From positions 1 through 60,199 of the forward strand of contig JABDMU010000086.1 in the NCBI GenBank assembly GCA_013001285.1: a stretch of DNA of 60,199 nucleotides, read 5' to 3'. The stretch's first letter is position 1. Each line of letters begins with the position of its first letter. Positions 20,621 to 26,216 of this stretch are shown one piece after another. Both the position numbers and the translations under genes were made by a program. The notes beneath the pieces were generated by a model. It was given only the letters and a program-made list of their open reading frames with translations. It was not told the origin of the DNA and did no database searches. Origin of the DNA: Flavobacteriaceae bacterium. GTDB taxonomy: Bacteria; Bacteroidota; Bacteroidia; Flavobacteriales; Flavobacteriaceae.

Positions 20621-21400
20621 CTAAATTCTATGTTCCAGTTGCTTTATCGATCGCAATTCGACTTTTAGGTCTTGGAACATATTGACAATACTGCTTAGTT
20701 TCAGTTCGCTTTCATCATATTCCTGAGTATTGATGCAACAGGTGAATTCCCAAAGCTCCAGCACGTCTTCCATCTTAACTGAATATGGTTCATATATTTT
20801 ATTATCGGAATGCAACCAGAGGCAACCATCCTCTTCAGTTTTATCATAAACTCGTTTATAAACCAGGCCATCATCTTTGGTCAATACAATATAGGTGCGT
20901 CCATTTTTGATGTCATGACTGTCTTCAACATACTTTGCGACTACAAAAGAACCGTCTTTTACAGGCAGCATAGAATCGCCTTTTATAGGAAACGCGCGAT
21001 GTGTTCCAGTTGGTAAGAAAGGGAGTTTGATCTTTTGCAATTGCTCAATATACTCTGGATCGGCATAGCCTTGTAAATAACCTGCAGATGCTTTTGCAGG
21101 AATGATCTCTATCAGGTCTTCATTAGATTCATTGACCGTAATTGGAAATAATACACGTTTGCTTCCAATTTCAATAAATGAGGTGTCGGTTGCTAAACGA
21201 AGATCATTTTTTACCAATATATCTATAGGAATGTCAAAATAATTAGAGAGATCGATAAGGCGTTCAATAGACGGTTCGGAGCGTCCTTCTTCGTAAGAGC
21301 CAACCACAGAGCGCGTCCAACCCAGTTCTTCTGCAAACTGTTCTTGAGAAAAACCCTTTGCTGTTCTGAGATGCCGAATATTGTTTTGAATATTTCTCAT
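20621..21400 (-). CDS. XRE-family repressor with S24 (LexA/UmuD-like) peptidase domain
   Basis: The 259-residue protein has an N-terminal helix-turn-helix (about residues 3-62, LRTAKGFSQEQFAEELGWTR) and a C-terminal S24 domain. The Ser-Lys dyad is visible: Ser143 in IKGDSMLP and Lys182 in VYKRVY. A candidate self-cleavage site, Ala106-Gly107 in AKASAGYLQG, lies 37 residues before the Ser, close to the 35 in LexA (84/119). Proteins of this build, such as lambda CI, repress until RecA-stimulated autocleavage. It is divergent from dnaE/dinB across a 61-base spacer with a perfect palindrome. A TATATTTG element ends 7 bases before its ATG, so its mRNA may be leaderless. I infer it represses itself and the polymerase genes. 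Confidence 0.9.
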   Translation of the reverse strand: MRNIQNNIRHLRTAKGFSQEQFAEELGWTRSVVGSYEEGRSEPSIERLIDLSNYFDIPIDILVKNDLRLATDTSFIEIGSKRVLFPITVNESNEDLIEIIPAKASAGYLQGYADPEYIEQLQKIKLPFLPTGTHRAFPIKGDSMLPVKDGSFVVAKYVEDSHDIKNGRTYIVLTKDDGLVYKRVYDKTEEDGCLWLHSDNKIYEPYSVKMEDVLELWEFTCCINTQEYDESELKLSSIVNMFQDLKVELRSIKQLEHRI

Positions 21401-21407
21401 ATTGCTA

Positions 21408-21448
21408 CAAATATAAGCAACATGAACTACATATTGTAGTTATTTTTG
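21408..21448. promoter_or_regulatory. Divergent promoter elements of the regulator and dnaE genes
   Basis: TATATTTG on the minus strand (CAAATATA at 21408-21415) serves the XRE/S24 gene and TATTTTTG on the plus strand (21441-21448) serves dnaE. Both fit TAnnTTTG. The palindrome at 21425-21441 lies between them and shares its last base with the dnaE element. Confidence 0.65.
21425..21441. promoter_or_regulatory. Perfect palindrome, probable operator of the mutagenesis cassette
   Basis: AACTACA-TAT-TGTAGTT is a perfect 7-bp inverted repeat with a 3-base centre, in the middle of the 61-base divergent spacer. Binding there would block the dnaE -7 element directly and the region upstream of the repressor's own element. 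A weaker related site (CTACAAAT within an imperfect TTGCT/AGCAA repeat, 21402-21420) covers the repressor's -7 element, 22 bp away half-site to half-site. Confidence 0.7.
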
Positions 21449-21461
21449 TTAAACTTATTTT

Positions 21462-24437
21462 ATGTATCTCAACTGCCACACATATTACAGTCTGCGTTAT
21501 GGCTCTATAAAGCCAGAGCGCCTCCTTGCCATCGCTTCAGAAAATGATGTGCAAACGCTTGCGCTAACCGATATTAATAATACGTCTGCTTGCCTTGATT
21601 TTGTGCGGTTATCACCAAAATACAAAATCAAGCCTGTGCTTGGCGTTGATTTTAGAAATGGCGCAGAGCAGCAATTCATCATCATTGCAAAAAACAACAC
21701 AGGCTTTCATGAGATCAATACCTATTTATCGCAGTTTCTACATGACCACGATCTGAAGATCCCCGAAACTCCAGAGGTCAATTTTAAGGATTGCTTCGTC
21801 ATCTATCCGTATCAGCATCATAAAGATTATACGCTAAAAGCCAATGAATTCTTGGGCATAAAACCTCAGGACCTCAATAAATTGAAGTTCTCTAAATGGA
21901 ATGCCCATCGCTCTAAATTGGTGGTCTTACAAACGGTGTCCTTCGAAAACAAAAAAGGCTTCAATACACACCGTTTGCTTCGTGCCATAGACAACAACAC
22001 CTTATTGAGTAAACTCCCAAAAAGCGAACAAGGTCTGGAGACCGATACCATGCTTCCGTATAACGAGCTTTGCGAGACCTATCAGGAATTCCCGGAACTC
22101 ATCACCAACACCACGCGACTTTTGAAGCATTGCAGTATCGATTTCGACTTTTCGCAGCGCATTCCAAATAACCAAAGGTCCTATACCAATAATGAGATCT
22201 TGGATTATAAACTCTTGGAAAGATTAACCTACCAAGGCTTGAATTACCGTTACAAAGATCCTAATAAGACCGTTTATGATCGCATTAAAAAAGAACTGAA
22301 CATCATTAAAGAAAAAGGCTTTGTCTCTTATTTCTTGATCAACTGGAAAATTTTGAAATATGCCCGAAGCAAAGGTTATTTTTACGTGGGTCGTGGCAGT
22401 GGCGCCAATAGTATCGTGGCTTATTTGCTACGCATTACCGATGTAGATCCGGTTGAGCTTGATCTGTACTTCGAGCGTTTTATAAATTTATACCGCACAA
22501 ATCCACCCGATTTCGATATTGATTTTTCATGGACAGATCGCGATGACATCACCCAATTCATCTTCAAGCGTTTTAAAAATACCGCACTCATTGCTGTGTA
22601 TAACACCTTTAAGTTTAGAGCTTCTATTAGAGAATTGGGAAAGGTATTTGGTTTGCCAAAGTCTGAAATGGATGTACTTACACGAGGAAAATTTGATTTC
22701 AAGCGTTTAGATCAACTCTCACAATTGGTAGTGGTTTACAGTCAGTACATACAAGGTTTTCCTAACTATTTAGGGATCCATGCCGGAGGGATCATCATTT
22801 CCGAAAAACCCATTCATTATTATACAGCTACTTTCATGCCGCCAAAGGGTTTTGCCACAACACAATTTGATATGGTGGTTGCCGAAGATATCGGATTGTA
22901 TAAGTTTGATATTTTAAGTCAGCGTGGCTTGGGCAAAATAAAAGATGCTGTAGACATTGTAACCTACAACCATCCTGAAAAATCGCCTATAGACATTCAT
23001 GACATCAAGCGTTTTAAAGAAGATAAACGCATCAAGTACTTGCTGCGAAATGCAAAGGCCATAGGTTGTTTTTATGTTGAATCGCCAGCCATGCGTATGT
23101 TGCTTAAGAAACTACAGGTCGATAATTATTTGGGCTTAGTTGCTGCCAGCTCAGTAATTCGGCCTGGCGTTTCTAAATCAGGAATGATGCGTGAGTACAT
23201 TATGCGGTACCGTTATCCGGAGCGTCGGAATGATGCGCATCCTGTTTTGTTAAACATTATGCCCGACACTTATGGTGTTATGGTGTATCAGGAAGATGTG
23301 ATCAAGGTAGCGCATCATTTTGGCGGCTTGAACCTGGGAGAAGCCGACATGTTGCGTCGCGGGATGTCAGGGAAATTTAGATCCAGAGCAGAGTTCCTTA
23401 AAGTGAAGGAACAGTTTTTTGAAAATTGCAAACGCGACGGCAAACCCGACGCGCTCACTACAGATATTTGGCGACAAATTGAAAGTTTTGCAGGCTATGC
23501 TTTCGCCAAAGGACACTCAGCATCCTATGCTGTGGAAAGCTATCAAAGTCTTTTTTTGAAAGCCTATTTCCCATTGGAATATATGGTGGCTACCATCAAT
23601 AATTTTGGTGGTTTTTATCGAACCGAACTCTATGTACACGAAGCCAGAATGCATGACGGTATTATTGAAGCGCCTTGTGTAAACAACAGTTTCAACCAAA
23701 CCATCATCAAAGGGAAAACCATTTATTTAGGTTTTATGTTTCTGCATGCCTTTGAATCGAAAACCATTAAAAAATTACTGACTGAACGTGAGCGTGATGG
23801 CGTCTTTAAAAACCTGGATGATTTTATTGAACGCGTGCCTATTTCTATTGAACAAATAGCGACCTTGATCAAGATCAATGCATTTCGGTTTACACAGATC
23901 AACAAGCGTGAATTGCTCTGGGAAGCGCATTTAAAGATCAGTAAAACTGTTGTTCAAGAACATAAGATCACCTTGTTTAAAACCCGACGTATCAATTATA
24001 AAACCCCCAAGTTGCCAAGCACGATTTTAGAAAATGCCTTTGATGAGATCGAGCTGCTAGGTTTCCCTTTATGCAATCCGTTTAGTTTGTTATTAAAACC
24101 TCAGCAAAGCGCCTTAAGAGCTAATGATCTTTTAACCTATAAGAACAAAGTGGTGACCATTGAAGGGTATTTAGTGACCACAAAAACCACCCAAACCTCA
24201 AATCATAAGTCAATGCATTTTGGCACCTTCTTAGATCGGGATGGCGATTTCATTGATACGGTTCATTTCCCACCTGTTGCCGCTAAATTTCCTTTTCGAG
24301 GAAAAGGCATCTACAAAATCACAGGGCGTGTTCTGGAAGAATTTGATTGTGTTAATATTGAAGTCATATCTATGTATAGATTAGCTATTGTTGAAGATCC
24401 TAGATATTCCGAAACCTCAAAACCCTTAACGGCATGA
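21462..24437 (+). CDS. Short DNA polymerase III alpha subunit (error-prone DnaE type)
   Basis: A C-family polymerase of 991 residues, about 170 shorter than E. coli DnaE. The catalytic aspartates are present: Asp352 and Asp354 in PPDFDIDFSW and Asp483 in GLYKFDIL; GRGSGANSIVAYLLRITDVD and MRRGMSGK-like and FAKGHSASYAVESYQ motifs are intact. The PHP domain is degenerate: LNCHTYYSL replaces the HxH motif and LTDINN replaces LTDHGN, so metal-dependent proofreading is unlikely. An OB domain is near the C-terminus (VTIEGYLV), but there is no tau-binding tail. Its stop overlaps the start of the Y-family polymerase by 4 bases. These traits and the neighbours fit a DnaE2-like translesion polymerase rather than the replicative one. 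Confidence 0.92.
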   Translation: MYLNCHTYYSLRYGSIKPERLLAIASENDVQTLALTDINNTSACLDFVRLSPKYKIKPVLGVDFRNGAEQQFIIIAKNNTGFHEINTYLSQFLHDHDLKIPETPEVNFKDCFVIYPYQHHKDYTLKANEFLGIKPQDLNKLKFSKWNAHRSKLVVLQTVSFENKKGFNTHRLLRAIDNNTLLSKLPKSEQGLETDTMLPYNELCETYQEFPELITNTTRLLKHCSIDFDFSQRIPNNQRSYTNNEILDYKLLERLTYQGLNYRYKDPNKTVYDRIKKELNIIKEKGFVSYFLINWKILKYARSKGYFYVGRGSGANSIVAYLLRITDVDPVELDLYFERFINLYRTNPPDFDIDFSWTDRDDITQFIFKRFKNTALIAVYNTFKFRASIRELGKVFGLPKSEMDVLTRGKFDFKRLDQLSQLVVVYSQYIQGFPNYLGIHAGGIIISEKPIHYYTATFMPPKGFATTQFDMVVAEDIGLYKFDILSQRGLGKIKDAVDIVTYNHPEKSPIDIHDIKRFKEDKRIKYLLRNAKAIGCFYVESPAMRMLLKKLQVDNYLGLVAASSVIRPGVSKSGMMREYIMRYRYPERRNDAHPVLLNIMPDTYGVMVYQEDVIKVAHHFGGLNLGEADMLRRGMSGKFRSRAEFLKVKEQFFENCKRDGKPDALTTDIWRQIESFAGYAFAKGHSASYAVESYQSLFLKAYFPLEYMVATINNFGGFYRTELYVHEARMHDGIIEAPCVNNSFNQTIIKGKTIYLGFMFLHAFESKTIKKLLTERERDGVFKNLDDFIERVPISIEQIATLIKINAFRFTQINKRELLWEAHLKISKTVVQEHKITLFKTRRINYKTPKLPSTILENAFDEIELLGFPLCNPFSLLLKPQQSALRANDLLTYKNKVVTIEGYLVTTKTTQTSNHKSMHFGTFLDRDGDFIDTVHFPPVAAKFPFRGKGIYKITGRVLEEFDCVNIEVISMYRLAIVEDPRYSETSKPLTA

Positions 24438-25654
24438 TTCTTAACAACCGCGCTATAGTCCATATGGATCTGGATACCTTTTTTGTGTCCTGTGAACGCT
24501 TGCTTGACAGTCGGCTTTTAGGTAAACCCGTACTTATTGGAGGTACTTCCGATCGTGGCGTGGTGGCTTCCTGCAGTTATGAAGCCCGTAAATTTGGTAT
24601 TCATTCGGCCATGCCTATGCGCATGGCGAAACAGCTTTGTCCTGAAGCCGTTATTTTAAGAGGGAATTCTGGTGTCTATACCAATTTTTCAAAAGACGTT
24701 ACCGATGTCATTAAAGAAAGTGTCCCGCTTTACGAAAAGTCTTCTATAGACGAATTTTATATTGATCTTACCGGAATGGATAAGTTCTTTGGCTGTCATA
24801 AACTGGCTTCCGAATTACGGCAACGCATCATGAAAGAAACCGGTTTGCCCATTTCGTTTGGCTTATCTATAAACAAAACCGTTTCTAAGATCGCCACTGG
24901 GGAAGCCAAACCCAATAACCAGATACAAATCACGAAAGGGACCGAAAAACCTTTTTTAGCGCCTCTATCTGTTCGGAAAATTCCTATGGTTGGGGAAGTG
25001 ACCTATAAATCGCTCTGTGATCTTGGTGTGAAACGCATTCAAACGGTGCAGGACATGCCTATGGAATTGATGCATAAAGTGCTAGGGAAAAATGGCTTGA
25101 GCATTTGGAAAAAAGCCAATGGTATAGACAATACGCCCGTCATTCAATACCATGAACGAAAATCCATTTCTACAGAACGCACTTTTGATAAAGACACGAC
25201 CGATGTGTATAAGCTCAAAAGCATTCTTATGGCTATGGCCGAGAACTTGGCTTATCAGTTGCGTCGTGGCAACAAGCTTACGGCTTGCATCACGTTTAAA
25301 ATTCGCTACTCCGATTTTCAAACCTATACCCAACAGCAACGCATTCCTTATAGTGCCATGGATCATAACATCATTCCTGTGGTCTTAGATCTGTTTAGAA
25401 AACTCTATAATCGACGTTTATTGGTTCGACTCATTGGCGTTAAGTTCAGCCATTTGGTTGAAGGTGGTCATCAGGTAAACCTGTTTGAAGACAACGAAAA
25501 ATTCCTCAACTTAAGTCAGGCTATCGATAAAATGCGTGAGCGTTATGGCGATCGTGTGGTCATTAATGCAGCAGGTATGGATGCCAAAAGCATCAGCAGA
25601 TGGAATCCGTTTACGGGAGAACCCCCACCATTATTGGCGAATAGAAGGCGTTAA
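24434..25654 (+). CDS. dinB: Y-family translesion DNA polymerase (DinB/Pol IV type)
   Basis: The 406-residue protein carries intact Y-family catalytic motifs: VHMDLDTFFVSCE with Asp12 (steric gate Phe17) and SSIDEFYIDL with Asp106-Glu107. Unlike an ImuB, it therefore should be an active polymerase. A beta-clamp-binding motif, QVNLF, is at 347-351, followed by a 55-residue tail (AIDKMRERYG, then a Pro-rich end) similar to the tails of UmuC-type proteins; E. coli DinB has only 351 residues. It is translationally coupled to dnaE by an ATGA overlap. Family knowledge: such enzymes bypass lesions with low fidelity. The pair is probably induced together from the dnaE promoter. Confidence 0.93.
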   Translation: MILNNRAIVHMDLDTFFVSCERLLDSRLLGKPVLIGGTSDRGVVASCSYEARKFGIHSAMPMRMAKQLCPEAVILRGNSGVYTNFSKDVTDVIKESVPLYEKSSIDEFYIDLTGMDKFFGCHKLASELRQRIMKETGLPISFGLSINKTVSKIATGEAKPNNQIQITKGTEKPFLAPLSVRKIPMVGEVTYKSLCDLGVKRIQTVQDMPMELMHKVLGKNGLSIWKKANGIDNTPVIQYHERKSISTERTFDKDTTDVYKLKSILMAMAENLAYQLRRGNKLTACITFKIRYSDFQTYTQQQRIPYSAMDHNIIPVVLDLFRKLYNRRLLVRLIGVKFSHLVEGGHQVNLFEDNEKFLNLSQAIDKMRERYGDRVVINAAGMDAKSISRWNPFTGEPPPLLANRRR

Positions 25655-25679: not shown

Positions 25680-26216
25680 ATGCAAGTTGATCTTAACATA
25701 AAAGGTGAAAAACCATCATTATTATCTAAAGTAATGGTTTCAATTCTATTTGCAGGATTTATAGCATATGTTATTTATCTAATTCGTGTTAAGGTTCAAA
25801 TCGAAGAAATGGATGTTATATATATCGTAATATATATCATATTTCTTTTTGCACTTACAATGTTGATTGCTCTATCTAGAATGGCCGTACACCATATTCA
25901 ATTCGATTTTAAAGCCATGAAATTTCGACACACATACGATATTGGAATAATGCATTACAAAAAATCATGGCGACATTTAAATCGTGTAAAATACATTTCC
26001 GTTTTTAAAGTTGCCAACACATACGAACTAAATATGTGGCATGAATATAATAATAGAACAAGTCTCATGGCAGTACTTAATTATAACCACGCCATGCAAA
26101 ATGCGTATGCCATTGCCGAAAAACTAGACACACGCATACTTGACGCCACTAAAAAAGAAGGTCAAAATTGGGTAGATAAAGATGCTTTAGGAAGATCTTT
26201 GGAAGCAAATGAATAA
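25680..26216 (+). CDS. Small membrane protein of unknown function downstream of dinB
   Basis: I do not recognise this 178-residue protein. It has two hydrophobic segments (about 18-36, VMVSILFAGFIAYVIYLI; and 46-66, VIYIVIYIIFLFALTMLIAL) and a hydrophilic C-terminal half with a PH-like look (beta-strand rich, HIQFDFKAMKFRHTYDIGI, then KVANTYELNMWHEYNN). It starts 25 bases after dinB but has its own probable promoter element, so it need not be part of the mutagenesis cassette. It is convergent with the M61 peptidase gene, with 5 bases between stops. Confidence 0.75.
   Translation: MQVDLNIKGEKPSLLSKVMVSILFAGFIAYVIYLIRVKVQIEEMDVIYIVIYIIFLFALTMLIALSRMAVHHIQFDFKAMKFRHTYDIGIMHYKKSWRHLNRVKYISVFKVANTYELNMWHEYNNRTSLMAVLNYNHAMQNAYAIAEKLDTRILDATKKEGQNWVDKDALGRSLEANE

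Follow-up and report, generated by a model that had tools for sequence, protein, structure and literature searches.

The locus raises the question of what an XRE-S24 regulator does when it faces two DNA polymerase genes, and whether it serves this pair of genes or a damage response of the whole genome. The window is the entire stretch of 60,199 nucleotides of Flavobacteriaceae DNA that was analysed; its genome (G000) comprises 2.88 Mb in 88 contigs and is 99.7% complete. The repressor gene (20621-21400, minus strand, 259 aa) is divergent from an accessory dnaE (21462-24437, plus strand, 991 aa), with 61 bp between the two start codons, and the gene of a DinB-type Y-family polymerase follows (24434-25654, plus strand, 406 aa). 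According to the gene coordinates, the dnaE stop and the dinB start overlap as ATGA (24434-24437, plus strand). This layout, with A106-G107, S143 and K182 in the regulator, had been described in an earlier note on the window, and its coordinates and domains were confirmed. The flanking genes scanned with Pfam and NCBIfam were ordinary, and ImuA was not found among them. Rfam and tRNA scans gave no match in the window. The 178-aa protein encoded immediately 3' of dinB (25680-26216, plus strand) had no Pfam or NCBIfam match. The explanation retained here, with a probability of about 0.86, is that the locus is a flavobacterial SOS hub, in which a non-canonical LexA represses itself and dnaE-dinB and is released after damage.

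The regulator was matched by HTH_3 (E = 1e-15) and Peptidase_S24 (E = 1.3e-9) in Pfam. Residues A106, G107, S143 and K182 were identical in 38/38 aligned rows, window included; A106-G107 is probably the cleavage site and S143/K182 the dyad of an S24 autoprotease domain. An AlphaFold2 model (mean pLDDT 69.7, pTM 0.46) was best in the N-terminal HTH_3 part, where the ten-residue blocks of residues 1-60 reached pLDDT 75-92. This part is a five-helix domain (helices 3-15, 19-26, 30-38, 45-55 and 59-64), and its third helix, residues 30-38, was read as the recognition helix. The top Foldseek matches of the model were a lambda-186 hybrid repressor, LexA and lambda CI, among 23 matches at E ≤ 0.001 that also included unrelated epoxidase chains. 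Since whole-chain superposition was poor (rmsd 14-21 Å for the top five matches), likeness at the level of domains alone was used. A sequence search of the PDB gave seven matches, six of which cover the HTH region alone, while the seventh extends to residue 92. The regulator was the only Peptidase_S24 match in its genome. LexA_DNA_bind (PF01726) was absent from the protein and from the genome; a control search found it in 10/14 genomes. By its sequence, the protein fits the non-canonical LexA family of Bacteroidetes described in the available text of PMC8565304.

The possibility, raised by the earlier note, that the DnaE of the window is the only replicative polymerase gene fell away with a second DnaE, a 1460-aa open frame on contig C75 that is 31-36% identical to the first. 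Full PHP, NTPase, finger and HHH_6 matches were obtained for this frame, which by its sequence is a replicative-type DnaE, and the window DnaE, the shorter of the two, was therefore taken as accessory. The latter has PHP, alpha NTPase, finger and HHH_6 domains (Pfam). Its PHP match covers residues 3-91 only (E = 1.9e-11), whereas the other DnaE matches the full profile (E = 1.2e-42). Asparagine 4 is present in 80/81 aligned rows and isoleucine 38 in 77/81; the other DnaE has His at both positions. Loss of PHP histidines is expected of DnaE2-type enzymes (PMC12926913, available text). The NCBIfam scores are not decisive as to type and were counted against the retained explanation: the DnaE1 model PRK05673 (499 bits) scored above the error-prone model PRK05672 (427 bits), both below cut-off. 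The enzyme would be DnaE2B-like, an assignment made by likeness to published descriptions rather than from a tree. The frame on C75 (L119) extends for about 150 residues before its PHP domain, and this extension looked DnaQ-like by eye; a DnaQ fusion was not confirmed, Pfam finding no exonuclease domain in the ATG-started form of 1352 aa.

Both polymerases look catalytically competent, as the earlier note had it. In DnaE, D350, D352, D354 and D483 were invariant in 81/81 rows, and in the DinB-type protein, which carries IMS and IMS_C domains (Pfam), D12, D14, D106 and E107 were invariant in 72/72, the window being included in both counts; judged from these residues, the catalytic site of the Y-family polymerase is intact. 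A second DinB of the genome is 35% identical to it. In its tail, a clamp-binding motif, QVNLF (25472-25486, plus strand), fits the QxxLF form given in PMC12926913, and a tail segment (NEKFLNLSQAIDKMRERYGDRVVI; 25493-25564, plus strand) resembles the N-terminal motif of RecA. Aligned with the genome's own RecA, this segment scored 31, a score reached by 3/1000 shuffles. A QxxLF-type motif followed by a stretch like the RecA N-terminus is described for Bacteroidetes PolY2 and for DnaE2B-PolY-RecA groups in the accessible parts of PMC6511836 and PMC12926913. By analogy, DnaE, the Y-family polymerase, the clamp and RecA probably form one translesion complex.

The spacer contains a palindrome, AACTACA-TAT-TGTAGTT (21425-21441), as candidate main operator, with the core CTAC-N5-GTAG at 21427-21439. 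When up to three mismatches were allowed, six such palindromes were found in the window against 4.1 expected, and only this one was perfect. In the 100 nt before dnaE, CTAC-N5-GTAG was exact in 18/35 sequences (window plus 34) and present with one mismatch in 6/35, compared with frequencies per sequence of 0.00014 (exact) and 0.016 (up to one mismatch) in single-base shuffles. It was absent within one mismatch from 11/35, which was counted against the retained explanation. A candidate second, degenerate operator, GCTAC-AAATA-TAAGC (21404-21418), overlaps the repressor's own -7-like box. Such a degenerate copy lay 22 bp upstream of the main operator in 21/21 sequences, among the 35, in which both elements were recognised; the second site is kept as a candidate with this fixed spacing as its sole support. 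A tandem operator of four half-sites at a 22 bp offset was rejected for the window, where 25/200 shuffles scored as well. With this model no shuffle out of 200 was as good in L013, L047 and L050, most single spacers were not significant, and in several spacers the best-scoring register differed from the operator.

TAnnTTTG is the consensus of the Bacteroidetes -7 box. It is fitted by TATATTTG (21408-21415, minus strand), the putative promoter element of the repressor, and by TATTTTTG (21441-21448, plus strand), the putative element of dnaE, which abuts the main operator; both were read from the sequence. Each operator site touches one of these boxes, a contact suggesting that transcription in either direction can be blocked by bound repressor. 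Other dyads occupy the same spacer position in sister genera: GCTAA-N5-TGAGC, GTTTC-N5-TAAAC and GGTAC-type dyads were seen in L047, L050, L034 and L042, whose spacers were equalled by 0, 0, 3 and 35 of 200 shuffles, respectively. In L050, L034 and L042 the recognition helix is not the same as in the window.

A scan of contigs gave at least 569 DnaE relatives. Analysis was restricted to the loci of the best 80, a sample that favours close relatives and in which contig ends truncate some loci. An S24 gene was divergent within 400 bp in 34 of these loci, at 400-1500 bp in three, elsewhere in the locus in three and not in the locus in 40. The dinB gene followed dnaE in 51 loci and preceded it in 21; seven loci lacked it, and in one it was placed otherwise. 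Conservation of the three-gene block, a point raised in the earlier note, was borne out: the complete block (divergent S24, dnaE and downstream dinB) was present in 33/80 of these best loci, and its linkage is more than chance. In L008 a divergent S24 gene is present and dinB runs off the contig. Boxes were surveyed in the 200 nt before the first polymerase gene of the 80 loci. The 37 loci with an S24 gene within 1500 bp had CTAC-N5-GTAG in 18 cases, CTAA-N5-TTAG in two and GGA-N5-TCC in one. Among the 16 DnaE-first loci lacking an adjacent S24 gene the same boxes were found in one, one and eight cases, respectively. The 14 DinB-first loci had GGA-N5-TCC in 11 and CTAA-N5-TTAG in two, and the 13 other loci had CTAA-N5-TTAG in five and GGA-N5-TCC in one. 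That orthologous operons in loci of other layouts are preceded by published boxes, GGA-N5-TCC above all, was counted for the retained explanation. In genome G030 (locus L055; L154 and L124), the repressor and dnaE-dinB are on different contigs, both with CTAC-N5-GTAG, and the pair would work at a distance if these sites are functional.

Relatives of the repressor were searched in 31 genomes chosen from the 80 DnaE loci and were present in 31/31; the best regulators were read for 30 of them, G001 having no locus. Group names were assigned from operators and identity. Twelve regulators, 28-32% identical to that of the window, had GGA-N5-TCC within 200 nt upstream in 12/12 cases, and L148 had CTAA-N5-TTAG in addition. 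In an unrooted tree, a long split with 100/100 support separated these 12 from the other 18 and the window. The window and 12 other regulators formed one clade (100/100), and exact CTAC-N5-GTAG was found upstream of 8/12 of these relatives. A second match that spans the S24 domain was seen in the genomes of two of these 12 relatives, G021 and G025, and was absent from the other ten. The remaining six regulators (37-44% identity) had exact CTAA-N5-TTAG in 1/6. When 296 genomes were drawn from the phylum, an S24 relative at E ≤ 1e-40, a cut-off that misses the more distant GGA-type regulators, was found in 51 of them, that of the window included.

The number of box sites gave no sign of a large regulon. 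CTAC-N5-GTAG occurred 19 times in the window's genome against 52 times for the reversed pattern; a longer form with two mismatches allowed occurred 79 times against 238 for the reversed control, and the box with an A/T spacer over 11 genomes 50 times against 81. A genome-wide regulon drawn from the box alone was rejected for this lack of excess. The 19 sites were distributed as one in the cassette, one at the promoter of a distant radical-SAM gene, 14 that fell within reading frames (12 of 15 loci and 2 of 3 loci in two readings) and three others, L097 (adjoining a tRNA-like element), L098 and L197 (near a contig end), for which no target was made out. Neither recA nor the second dinB had one of the 19 sites in its vicinity. 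The missing excess, the 14 sites in reading frames and the lack of a box at recA were counted against the retained explanation. An inverted repeat, CTGCTAAAA-N9-TTTTAGCAG, was noticed by eye a few tens of nt ahead of recA (L120, contig C17); it differs from the N5 SOS dyad and may serve either in regulation or to terminate transcription of the preceding gene. The survey of 11 genomes added 17 newly found loci: five cassette promoters, one radical-SAM promoter, ten sites inside genes and one near none.

The distant gene preceded by a non-coding CTAC-N5-GTAG site in the window's genome is of the PA0069 radical-SAM family (NCBIfam), which we take to be SplB/COG1533. It was found in 24/32 genomes, in which a stretch of 700 nt preceding the conserved start region was surveyed for boxes. 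The CTAC box was present in 3/7 genomes of the window clade (the window's, G020 and G023) and in 0/17 others; its absence from 4/7 promoters of the clade was counted against the retained explanation. The GGA box was present in 12/12 genomes of the GGA group and once in the window clade, 670 nt from the gene and probably by chance, and the CTAA box in 2/5 genomes. In G020 (L180), an in-frame stop lies 57 nt before the conserved start region, compared with 177-285 nt in the other 23, and the gene is either shortened or affected by an assembly frameshift. The gene is probably the radical-SAM target (SplB/COG1533) listed for non-canonical LexA in PMC8565304. Because the S24 protein is the genome's only S24 match and a box stands before this distant gene, it is better read as the SOS repressor of the genome; the SOS regulon appears to be small, though more than a local cassette, and to have a shifted operator.

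Three other explanations were weighed. The S24 protein could act on the divergent pair alone, as an autoregulator in an FddR-like unit, instead of being a regulon-wide SOS repressor. The lack of a genome-wide excess of boxes, the location of 14/19 sites inside reading frames and the lack of a listed site at recA and the second dinB speak for this, and divergent regulator-polymerase units are described in Francisella (PMC13148647, available text). Against it stand the box that precedes the radical-SAM gene in two relatives as well as in the window's genome, and the GGA box before the same gene in 12/12 genomes of the other group; we consider it decidedly unlikely. That the protein is the remnant of a phage or mobile-element repressor, lying beside polymerase genes and playing no part in a damage response, is highly improbable. 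Its HTH_3-S24 architecture is that of CI-type repressors and 22 phage records match it, all of them below 60% identity. The best-ranked of these has 32.5% identity over 81% coverage (short HTH-only matches reach 50.8%), whereas the full-length S24 genes of bacterial loci that lie divergent within 400 bp are 61-82% identical to the regulator. The divergent order kept in 34/80 loci, the invariant autoproteolysis residues and the ordinary neighbouring genes also argue against a remnant. A phage origin of the gene was rejected on the weakness of the phage matches.

The third explanation concerns the polymerases, which might be independent enzymes merely sharing a promoter. The varied placement of dinB among the 80 loci speaks for it; the persistence of the linkage, the RecA-like tail with its clamp motif, and the AlphaFold support that the available text of PMC12926913 gives for the general class of modules based on DnaE2 and PolY speak for one complex, and we consider independence rather unlikely. 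With the SOS hub as the retained explanation, an XRE-S24 dimer would sit on CTAC-N5-GTAG in the shared spacer, cover the start regions of its own gene and of the dnaE-dinB operon, and so repress both. After DNA damage, RecA filaments would trigger cleavage at A106-G107 and repression would be lifted. The error-prone DnaE and the active Y-family polymerase would then be made together, and would probably act as a clamp- and RecA-bound translesion complex of the DnaE2B-PolY-RecA type. The repressor probably also controls the distant radical-SAM gene. Binding, repression, RecA-stimulated cleavage, induction, complex formation and mutagenesis are what we infer for this organism; binding and mitomycin C induction are published for relatives (PMC8565304). 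The proposal of an S24 repressor over two competent polymerases agrees with the residues, the palindrome and these published tests on relatives, and the notion of an isolated, self-contained cassette is probably wrong, given the sole S24 match and the box before the radical-SAM gene.

The CTAC-N5-GTAG palindrome looks like a shifted operator, conserved in sister genera, and appears to be new. It is somewhat better than an even chance that in a clade of Flavobacteriaceae (Winogradskyella, Lacinutrix, Gelidibacter and kin) SOS is run by this third operator code, the spacer forming a series of repressor-operator co-evolution. The change of operator at the repressor, the polymerase operon and some radical-SAM promoters, together with the dyads of the sister genera, leads to this view of the spacer as a natural series. 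If it holds, genomes with the third code often have a single such repressor, and the series would run mostly without an obvious paralog. Among the matches listed, no mention of Winogradskyella was found in the related literature. The window's genome combines a single S24 match with a changed motif and with one or more distant candidate targets that follow this motif; together with its sister genera, the locus offers a compact test case for joint change in an SOS repressor and its sites.

The locus differs from several known systems. The repressor lacks the winged HTH of canonical LexA, LexA_DNA_bind (PF01726). The ImuA-ImuB-DnaE2 cassette has a dead imuB, whereas here the Y-family protein is intact and the scanned flanking genes lack ImuA. 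UmuD has no HTH, unlike the S24 protein of the window, which is moreover the sole S24 match of its genome. The contrast with known cassettes drawn in the earlier note is wrong, and with it the claim of novelty fails: non-canonical LexA, its dinB-dnaE target and the module of two active polymerases are all published, and the system is well conserved and already published in kind. In FddR of Francisella, a phage-like S24 repressor is divergent from a translesion polymerase in some species, as here, and belongs to a separate S24 clade (PMC13148647). The DnaE2B-PolY-RecA module of Bacteroidetes, exemplified by Cellulophaga algicola (PMC6511836), has two active polymerases (PMC6511836, PMC12926913). 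As in the window, its accessory DnaE has a degenerate PHP domain and lies next to an active Y-family polymerase bearing a RecA-like motif, and the locus lacks ImuA and ImuB; no difference was found relative to the available descriptions, the assignment being by likeness and not by tree.

The non-canonical LexA family was established in Bacteroidetes by motif discovery, EMSA and mitomycin C RT-qPCR (PMC8565304, available text), and its targets include DinB with DnaE. Its CTAA-N5-TTAG group shares with the window the HTH_3 and S24 domains, the Ala-Gly and Ser-Lys residues, a dyad-N5-dyad operator in its own promoter, and error-prone polymerase and radical-SAM (COG1533) targets. The operator of the window, CTAC-N5-GTAG, is outside the two main published motifs; CTAC and GTAG are absent from the main text of PMC8565304, and its Supplementary Table S10, of diverged palindromes, may list them. 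In Elizabethkingia anophelis, a diverged regulator with TTAC-AAATT-GTAA faces an error-prone polymerase gene, and both are induced by mitomycin C (PMC8565304). The window likewise has a regulator facing a polymerase gene and a diverged dyad with an N5 spacer; it differs by its dnaE-dinB pair and by C instead of T as the outer operator base. E. anophelis belongs to the Weeksellaceae, in which PMC8565304 reports paralogs, whereas the window's genome has a single S24 gene; PMC8565304 ties the change of motif to gene duplication, and here the change is seen with one S24 match. The comparison corrects the idea of a new arrangement and places the flavobacterial locus within an established damage response, and it adds, usefully, a third operator specificity of a phage-like SOS repressor that can be put to the test.
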